Origin: Candidatus Baltobacteraceae bacterium
GTDB lineage: Bacteria > Vulcanimicrobiota > Vulcanimicrobiia > Vulcanimicrobiales > Vulcanimicrobiaceae
Assembly: GCA_036489885.1 (NCBI GenBank)
Contig: DASXEW010000003.1
Coordinates: 1,488,001 to 1,552,000 of the forward strand
Reading direction: 5' to 3'
Length of the DNA stretch: 64,000 nucleotides
Shown here: positions 61,304 to 63,016 of the stretch, piece by piece
Position numbering within the stretch: position 1 is the first letter of the stretch
Layout: each line of letters starts with the position of its first letter
The notes under the pieces: model-generated
What the model saw: the letters and a program-made list of their open reading frames with translations, nothing else
Told to the model about the DNA's origin: nothing
Databases searched by the model: none
Translations under genes and position numbers: made by a program

Positions 61304-63016
61304 ATGCGCTTTCATGCCCTCGCGGTGGACTTCGATGGAACGCTCGCACACGACAGCCGAGTGGCCGAGCAGGCACTCGAGGCGCTGCGGGCATTGCGGA
61401 AATCCGGCCGCCGTTCCATCCTCGCGACCGGTCGTATCCTCGACGACCTGCGCGGCGTCTACAAGAACCTCGAGTTGTTCGACGCCGTCGTCGCGGAGAA
61501 TGGCGCGGTTCTCTTCGACCCGGCTAGCGGCAAGACCGAACTGCTTGCACCGCCGCCGTCCGAAAAGTTCGTCGAGGCGCTGCGTGCGCGCGGCGTCGCG
61601 CCGCTCGAGGTCGGGCACGTGATCGTTGCGACGTGGCAGCCGCATGAAGCTGCGGTGCTGGAGACGATACGCGAGCTCGGGCTCGATCTGACGGTTATCT
61701 TCAACAAGGGCGCCGTCATGGTATTGCCTTCCGGCATCAACAAAGCGACCGGACTCGAAAAGCAGCTCGAGGCTTTCAAGCTTTCATTCCACAACGTAGC
61801 CGGTATCGGCGACGCAGAAAACGATCTGCGTTTCCTGGAACGCTGCGAAGCATCGGCTGCAGTCTCCAACGCTCTGGACAGCGTCAAAGAGCAATGTGAC
61901 CTTGTGATGGAAGGCGATCACGGACACGGCGTTCGCCAATTCATCGAGCAGATCATCGAGGACGATCTTGCATCGCAATCCGAGCGTATCGATCGCCGTC
62001 ATCGTATCGCGCTCGGGAAGTTGCAAGACGGAGTGCTCGACGTATCGGTCGCGTGCCGCGGCGTCCTGATCGCGGGAACTTCCGGCGGTGGAAAGTCGAC
62101 GATGGCGAGCGCAATCATTGAACGCGTCGCGGAAGGCGGCTATCAATATACGATCTTGGATCCCGAAGGTGATTTTTCCGACCTCGAAGGCGCGATCGCC
62201 GTCGGCGATGCGGAGAGCGAACCCAATCTCGCGACGGTCAGCGACGTCATCACCTCCGGTCAGAACAGCGTAATCTCGCTCGTCGCGATCAAAGTTGACG
62301 ATCGCGCCGTGCAGGCACGGCAGCTGCTCAGCCGCATCGCCGAGTTACGAGCGCGCTTCGGGCGCCCGCATTGGCTGATCATCGATGAGGCGCATCATTT
62401 TTTCCCGGCCGCCGCGAAATCGTCGTCTGATTCGCTCGAGCCGTGTCTCGGCGTCCTGTACACGACGACCGAGCCGCAGCTGGTCGCGACCGAGGCCCTC
62501 CGCTGCGTTGACGTCGTTATCGCGATGGGTGAAGAGCCGCGTGCAACAATCGACGCGGCCCGAAAGCAGCTGGGCATCGAAGGCTCGATCGGCGGCGCCT
62601 CCGTTCCGAAAAAGCTGCGCCGCGGTGAAGCGCTGGTTTGGCGGCGCAGCGACCCTGAAACGCTTGCTCACATCGAGACGATTGCCGGAAAGTCCGAACG
62701 CCGGCGCCACGCGCGAAAATACGCCAAGGGCGAATTGGCGGAAGAGAAGTCGTTCTATTTCACGGGGCCAAAGCGCAAGCTCAATCTCCGCGCGCAGAAC
62801 CTCTTTACGTTCGTGCAGATGGCGGAAGGCGTCGATGACGAGACGTGGACGTACCACTTAAAACGCCACGATTATTCAGGCTGGGTTCGCGAGATGATCG
62901 GCGACGACGATCTCGCTGCTGAATTCCGTGCAACCGAAAGCGAACGCAAGCTCAGCCCCAGCGAAGGCCGTAAACGCATCGCCGAGGCTGTGCGCGAACG
63001 CTATACGGTAGGTTAG
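61304..63016 (+). CDS. HAD-IIB phosphatase fused to P-loop ATPase
   Basis: A 570-residue two-domain protein. Residues 1-210 are a Cof-type HAD phosphatase: VDFDGT (D9, D11), ATGR, K147 in GINKATG, and GDAENDL (D170, D174), with a type IIB cap between. Residues 240 to about 490 are a P-loop ATPase: Walker A GTSGGGKST (258-266), LDPEGDF (286-291), Walker B LIIDEAHHF (358-366); this matches the HerA/VirB4-like DUF87 class. The C-terminal 80 residues are basic and helical. Both active sites look intact. It may couple sugar-phosphate chemistry to an ATP-driven motor, but its role is unknown. Convergent with fumC by 4 bp. Confidence 0.82.
   Translation: MRFHALAVDFDGTLAHDSRVAEQALEALRALRKSGRRSILATGRILDDLRGVYKNLELFDAVVAENGAVLFDPASGKTELLAPPPSEKFVEALRARGVAPLEVGHVIVATWQPHEAAVLETIRELGLDLTVIFNKGAVMVLPSGINKATGLEKQLEAFKLSFHNVAGIGDAENDLRFLERCEASAAVSNALDSVKEQCDLVMEGDHGHGVRQFIEQIIEDDLASQSERIDRRHRIALGKLQDGVLDVSVACRGVLIAGTSGGGKSTMASAIIERVAEGGYQYTILDPEGDFSDLEGAIAVGDAESEPNLATVSDVITSGQNSVISLVAIKVDDRAVQARQLLSRIAELRARFGRPHWLIIDEAHHFFPAAAKSSSDSLEPCLGVLYTTTEPQLVATEALRCVDVVIAMGEEPRATIDAARKQLGIEGSIGGASVPKKLRRGEALVWRRSDPETLAHIETIAGKSERRRHARKYAKGELAEEKSFYFTGPKRKLNLRAQNLFTFVQMAEGVDDETWTYHLKRHDYSGWVREMIGDDDLAAEFRATESERKLSPSEGRKRIAEAVRERYTVG

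Follow-up and report, generated by a model that had tools for sequence, protein, structure and literature searches.

The gene and its product

The window, by which we mean the whole 64,000-nucleotide stretch of the Candidatus Baltobacteraceae bacterium genome analyzed here, carries on its plus strand a complete gene (61304–63016) consisting of a single open reading frame, which runs from an ATG to a TAG with no internal stops and encodes 570 amino acids. On the minus strand, a gene resembling those of aldehyde dehydrogenases is divergent from it, and a fumarase-like gene lies tail to tail with it, overlapping it by 4 bases (63013–63016). Both were named by reading their translations, and neither supplies a partner that would explain the protein, as an initial reading of the sequence alone (the sequence-only reading) had concluded. 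The base composition of the open reading frame matches its surroundings (GC 0.614 versus 0.61 in the window; GC3 0.72).

The sequence-only reading described a chain of two domains, an HAD phosphatase joined to a P-loop ATPase. Both halves were recognized as named, by Pfam models scoring above cut-off (Hydrolase_3, PF08282, E = 2e-28; DUF87, PF01935, E = 2.1e-7, 31.7 bits versus a cut-off of 23.2) and by fold comparison. The count of two has to be revised, since a third conserved domain occupies residues about 470–570. The fusion protein thus has three domains: an HAD-IIB domain, a HerA-fold ATPase domain and a C-terminal domain related to OrfY/DUF5752. The AlphaFold2 model of the whole chain is confident (mean pLDDT 93.6, pTM 0.86).

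Conservation was assessed in an alignment of 47 members of the fusion family. Invariant residues were found in the HAD part (D9, D11, T13, K147, D170, N173 and D174), in the ATPase part (G258, G263, K264 and E362, with S265 and D361 conserved in at least 90% of members) and in the C-terminal part (R471, Y473, F484, F486, N499, W515 and H518), which indicates that all three domains are under selection. The HAD active-site residues picked out by the sequence-only reading (D9, D11, K147, D170 and D174) are all among the invariant ones, as are G258, G263, K264 and E362 within the Walker A (258–266) and Walker B (358–366) stretches that it marked.

Occurrence and genomic context of the fusion

A scan of 84,980 species genomes revealed 399 stretches encoding relatives of the protein. 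In the best 80 of these 399, the domains occur in the same order in one gene, those listed span nearly the whole protein, and the loci come from about ten phyla, with carriers in Cyanobacteriota, Pseudomonadota, Planctomycetota, Acidobacteriota, Nitrospirota, Bacteroidota, Chloroflexota, Actinomycetota, Rokubacteria, Melainabacteria and Eremiobacterota. Within the phylum of the window, the distribution is patchy: the fusion is complete in 8 of 149 genomes, the window's own included, and partial in 2 more. Finished plasmids also carry it, annotated as one CDS under the names "HAD-IIB family hydrolase" or "HAD hydrolase family protein". The recurrence of the same fusion at these 80 best loci and on finished plasmids rules out an assembly artefact of adjacent genes. 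It also means that the combination, which the sequence-only reading had called unusual, is in fact common and less surprising than was held. RefSeq proteins of about 570 amino acids named "HAD-IIB family hydrolase", such as WP_067969398.1 and WP_015146385.1, have the same full-length architecture at about 46–47% identity and differ from the protein described here in sequence divergence only.

The fusion family is common in bacteria and apparently unstudied. A literature search found no paper on HAD-IIB with DUF87, which is weak evidence, and an earlier mention of the fusion is possible; a survey of the FtsK-HerA group was reportedly made by Iyer and colleagues in 2004.

Analysis of the 108 immediate neighbors of the fusion loci revealed no common family, the most frequent being Response_reg (5 of 108). 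A short-chain dehydrogenase/reductase (SDR) gene common to 19 loci was considered as an operon partner and rejected, as these are mostly one and the same rhizobial locus. The fusion gene travels alone, and the lack of a conserved neighbor suggests that the protein is self-contained. Several plasmid copies (L125, L126, L127 and L128) lie among stress-type genes, including those for Dps, PRC-barrel, BON, universal stress protein, catalase and hemerythrin.

The HAD-IIB domain

The HAD-IIB phosphatase domain (residues 1–222; 61304–61969, plus strand) scores 65.2 bits with the NCBIfam model HAD-SF-IIB (TIGR01484), above the curated cut-off of 41.8, and contains the full motif set of this class: the DxD nucleophile/acid pair (D9/D11), the motif II threonine (T42, present in at least 90% of the 47 members), the lysine (K147) and the motif IV acidic pair (D170/D174). 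Its best fold match is 1wr8 (Z = 27.0 over 222 residues, rmsd 2.5, 28% identity), and its nearest relatives are small-metabolite phosphatases with a cap. This kinship suggests that the HAD part would be a phosphatase of a small phosphorylated metabolite, and our best guess from HAD-IIB relatedness is that the substrate may be a sugar phosphate or a related phospho-acid.

Among the NCBIfam models, those of the phosphoglycolate, SPP and Cof phosphatases lie closest to the HAD half. It could accordingly be asked whether the protein is a phosphoglycolate-type phosphatase serving metabolite repair, as proposed for the archaeal enzymes PH1421 (1wr8) and TA0175 (1kyt), with the other domains tuning the HAD activity. 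These two enzymes, which are single-domain and not fused, resemble the whole HAD half and share its catalytic residues, and the two highest scores belong to phosphoglycolate phosphatase models (NF002245, 108.9 bits; TIGR01487, 104.2 bits). However, both scores fall below the curated equivalog cut-offs (198 and 122.75, respectively), and the carriers include many heterotrophs, for example Mesorhizobium. We therefore regard this reading as unlikely.

The HAD domain also occurs by itself. Among 242 cyanobacterial genomes, the full fusion was found in 20 and HAD-only relatives, mostly of 225–260 amino acids, in 27. In a maximum-likelihood tree of the HAD domain, the solo forms are nested among the fused ones. 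The pattern needs three changes, interpretable as one fusion followed by two losses, in a tree that has 25 open forks and moderate, unsettled bootstrap support. The nesting of HAD-only forms among fused ones implies that the phosphatase can stand alone and that the ATPase is an add-on, so the HAD half probably works without the ATPase. This is consistent with a phosphatase that acquired the other domains as control parts, which can be lost again.

The ATPase domain

The ATPase domain (residues about 231–467; 61994–62704, plus strand; Walker A, G258–S265; Walker B, 358–362) is matched by the HerA structures 9x1m, 4d2i and 8xav (Z = 19.7), so that similarity to DUF87/HerA proteins is found by both profile and fold. 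A P-loop kinase reading, raised by weak matches to APS-kinase and HprK, was set aside on account of the DE in Walker B and the strong match to the HerA fold.

The domain shares the ATPase core fold, Walker A and Walker B with the HerA/DUF87 translocases. It differs from them in consisting of the core only, in bearing attached HAD and OrfY-like domains, and in two motifs linked to motor function. R455 and K456 of one HerA, from an anti-phage complex, form an arginine finger acting in trans, and the ATPase activity of this HerA fell drastically on mutation of the basic residues of the finger and of Walker A (PMC11291478). The two residues are located at +28/+29 from the Walker B glutamate E427, a spacing that would make them equivalent to GRK within the GRKYG segment of aligned HerA proteins. 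The whole segment, some 11 residues long, is lacking in the fusion family, where GRK is found in none of the 47 aligned members. Likewise, TQR at the TQRP site is found in none of the 47, being replaced by TVHP in 31 and by TTEP or similar in the others. Solo HerA-like proteins of 540–560 amino acids from rhizobial genomes (L163 and L164) have the DPEGDF motif in common with the fusion family and are likely its closest ATPase-only relatives; unlike the fusion family, they keep both GRK and TQR.

The family-wide absence of the finger segment and replacement of TQRP make a HerA-type translocating ring doubtful for the fusion ATPase. The "translocase-type motor" of the sequence-only reading thus holds good as regards the intact Walker motifs, but not as regards the ring. 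ATP binding by the domain is very likely and hydrolysis is possible. The invariant Walker A lysine and Walker B glutamate suggest real ATP hydrolysis, for which other conserved basic residues (R349, R354, R468 and R471) could provide a different finger.

A true HerA-type motor, in which an ATPase ring moves DNA or another polymer while the HAD domain works on a phosphate at that site, such as that of a DNA end or a nucleotide, would account for the HerA fold and for the conservation of Walker A and Walker B. It would also accommodate a solo cyanobacterial HAD of the fusion family that lies directly downstream of a NurA-domain gene (L147, 507–2438), but this is the only locus at which such a linkage was seen, and NurA linkage was rejected as a general feature. 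Set against a motor are the missing finger and altered TQRP site throughout the family, the rarity of defence families among the neighbors of fusion loci, and the closeness of the HAD half to capped small-metabolite phosphatases. We consider a motor distinctly improbable. A defence system was also considered and appears unlikely: PADLOC defence models gave partial P-loop matches only (for example, mad8 at 4.1e-9 over 64 residues and HerA at 1.5e-6 over 49), with no full-length match, and few defence families were seen among the neighbors.

The C-terminal domain and the question of trehalose

The C-terminal helical domain (residues about 469–570; 62708–63013, plus strand) is related to OrfY/DUF5752 by several lines of comparison. 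Searched alone with PF19027 (DUF5752), it gave E = 0.01 and 15.6 bits, below the gathering cut-off of 23; 8 of the 47 fusion members match this model at E ≤ 0.01, the best at 2.8e-4. Modelled separately (pLDDT 90.4), it resembles 4CSO, the OrfY protein of Thermoproteus tenax, whose structure was deposited as that of a transcription factor (Z = 11.2, rmsd 2.1 over 95 residues; next entry 5.1), a score to be read with the caution that Z < 13 for helical domains can mean a common arrangement only. A profile built from fused members alone matched 4CSO at E = 2.5e-4, which is weak but the only significant sequence match in the PDB; a stronger match (1.2e-16) is not independent, because the profile behind it already included a protein of the DUF5752 family. 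As the sequence match backs the fold, kinship with OrfY is credible. OrfY/DUF5752 proteins comprise two repeats of about 100 amino acids each, whereas the fusion protein has one repeat, at the end of the enzyme, and the tandem second repeat is absent.

The same C-terminal domain ends several other proteins, namely sugar-nucleotide enzymes that are fusions of NTP_transferase and phosphomannomutase domains of 945–971 amino acids (L113, 2461–5325; L114, 2790–5702; L115, 2190–5024). A free-standing 149-amino-acid copy that includes the RKYAEG linker (L172, 1064–1510, minus strand) is located some 14 kb away from the complete fusion gene of that genome and may be the remnant of a second copy. In addition, a full-length DUF5752 protein is encoded in a trehalose cluster of Acidobacteriaceae, OtsA-OtsB-DUF5752-TreT (L174, 1–3624; L189), linking the uncharacterized DUF5752/OrfY domain to bacterial trehalose synthesis. 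No paper on DUF5752, or on OrfY with trehalose, was found in the literature, an absence that is weak evidence.

The occurrence of a related C-terminal domain in a protein of a trehalose cluster, together with two Aminobacter plasmids on which the fusion gene lies near genes for trehalose-6-phosphate synthase, amylo-1,6-glucosidase and a GT4 protein, would agree with a trehalose-6-phosphate (or related glycosyl-phosphate) phosphatase having built-in control. However, no match to the synthase OtsA (Glyco_transf_20, PF00982) was found in the window's own genome, which is 96% complete, and 11 of the 18 further carrier genomes searched gave none either. The neighbors in other carriers are unrelated, and the trehalose-6-phosphate phosphatase (T6PP) model is outside the best 25 NCBIfam models of the HAD half, whose nearest models have been given above. 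For carriers lacking OtsA, trehalose-6-phosphate is unlikely as a general substrate; because the genome of the window has no detectable synthase, it is very unlikely to be the general substrate, and we rate a dedicated trehalose-type enzyme as highly improbable.

A proposed phosphatase under control in cis

The explanation that we prefer, and to which we give about an even chance of being correct, is that the protein is a small-metabolite HAD-IIB phosphatase controlled in cis by a non-motor HerA-fold domain and an OrfY-type sensing or docking domain. It starts from what is recognized by sequence or fold, that is, the three domains, the HAD catalytic residues, Walker A and Walker B, the lack of the HerA finger and the OrfY/DUF5752 kinship of the C-terminus; from these we infer phosphatase activity, the use of ATP as a switch and a regulatory role for the C-terminal domain. 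In such a protein, the HAD-IIB domain would dephosphorylate a small metabolite, with a sugar phosphate or a related phospho-acid as the likeliest candidate. The HerA-fold domain would bind, and perhaps hydrolyze, ATP and, rather than working as a HerA-type ring motor, would control the activity or location of the HAD domain in cis, while the OrfY-type domain would sense a metabolite or dock to a partner. A more specific version, which we put forward tentatively and think somewhat unlikely as a whole, is that a HerA-derived ATPase lost its ring-motor function and was recruited as an ATP-dependent switch gating a metabolite phosphatase, with the OrfY-type domain reporting sugar status.

In scores of species across about ten phyla, the protein goes by a name that gives no hint of two of its three domains. 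Should the HerA-fold part prove to act as a switch rather than a motor, the family would show a translocase fold put to use in metabolic control, and would connect OrfY/DUF5752, otherwise seen here in the context of trehalose and NDP-sugars, with an enzyme activity open to direct assay.
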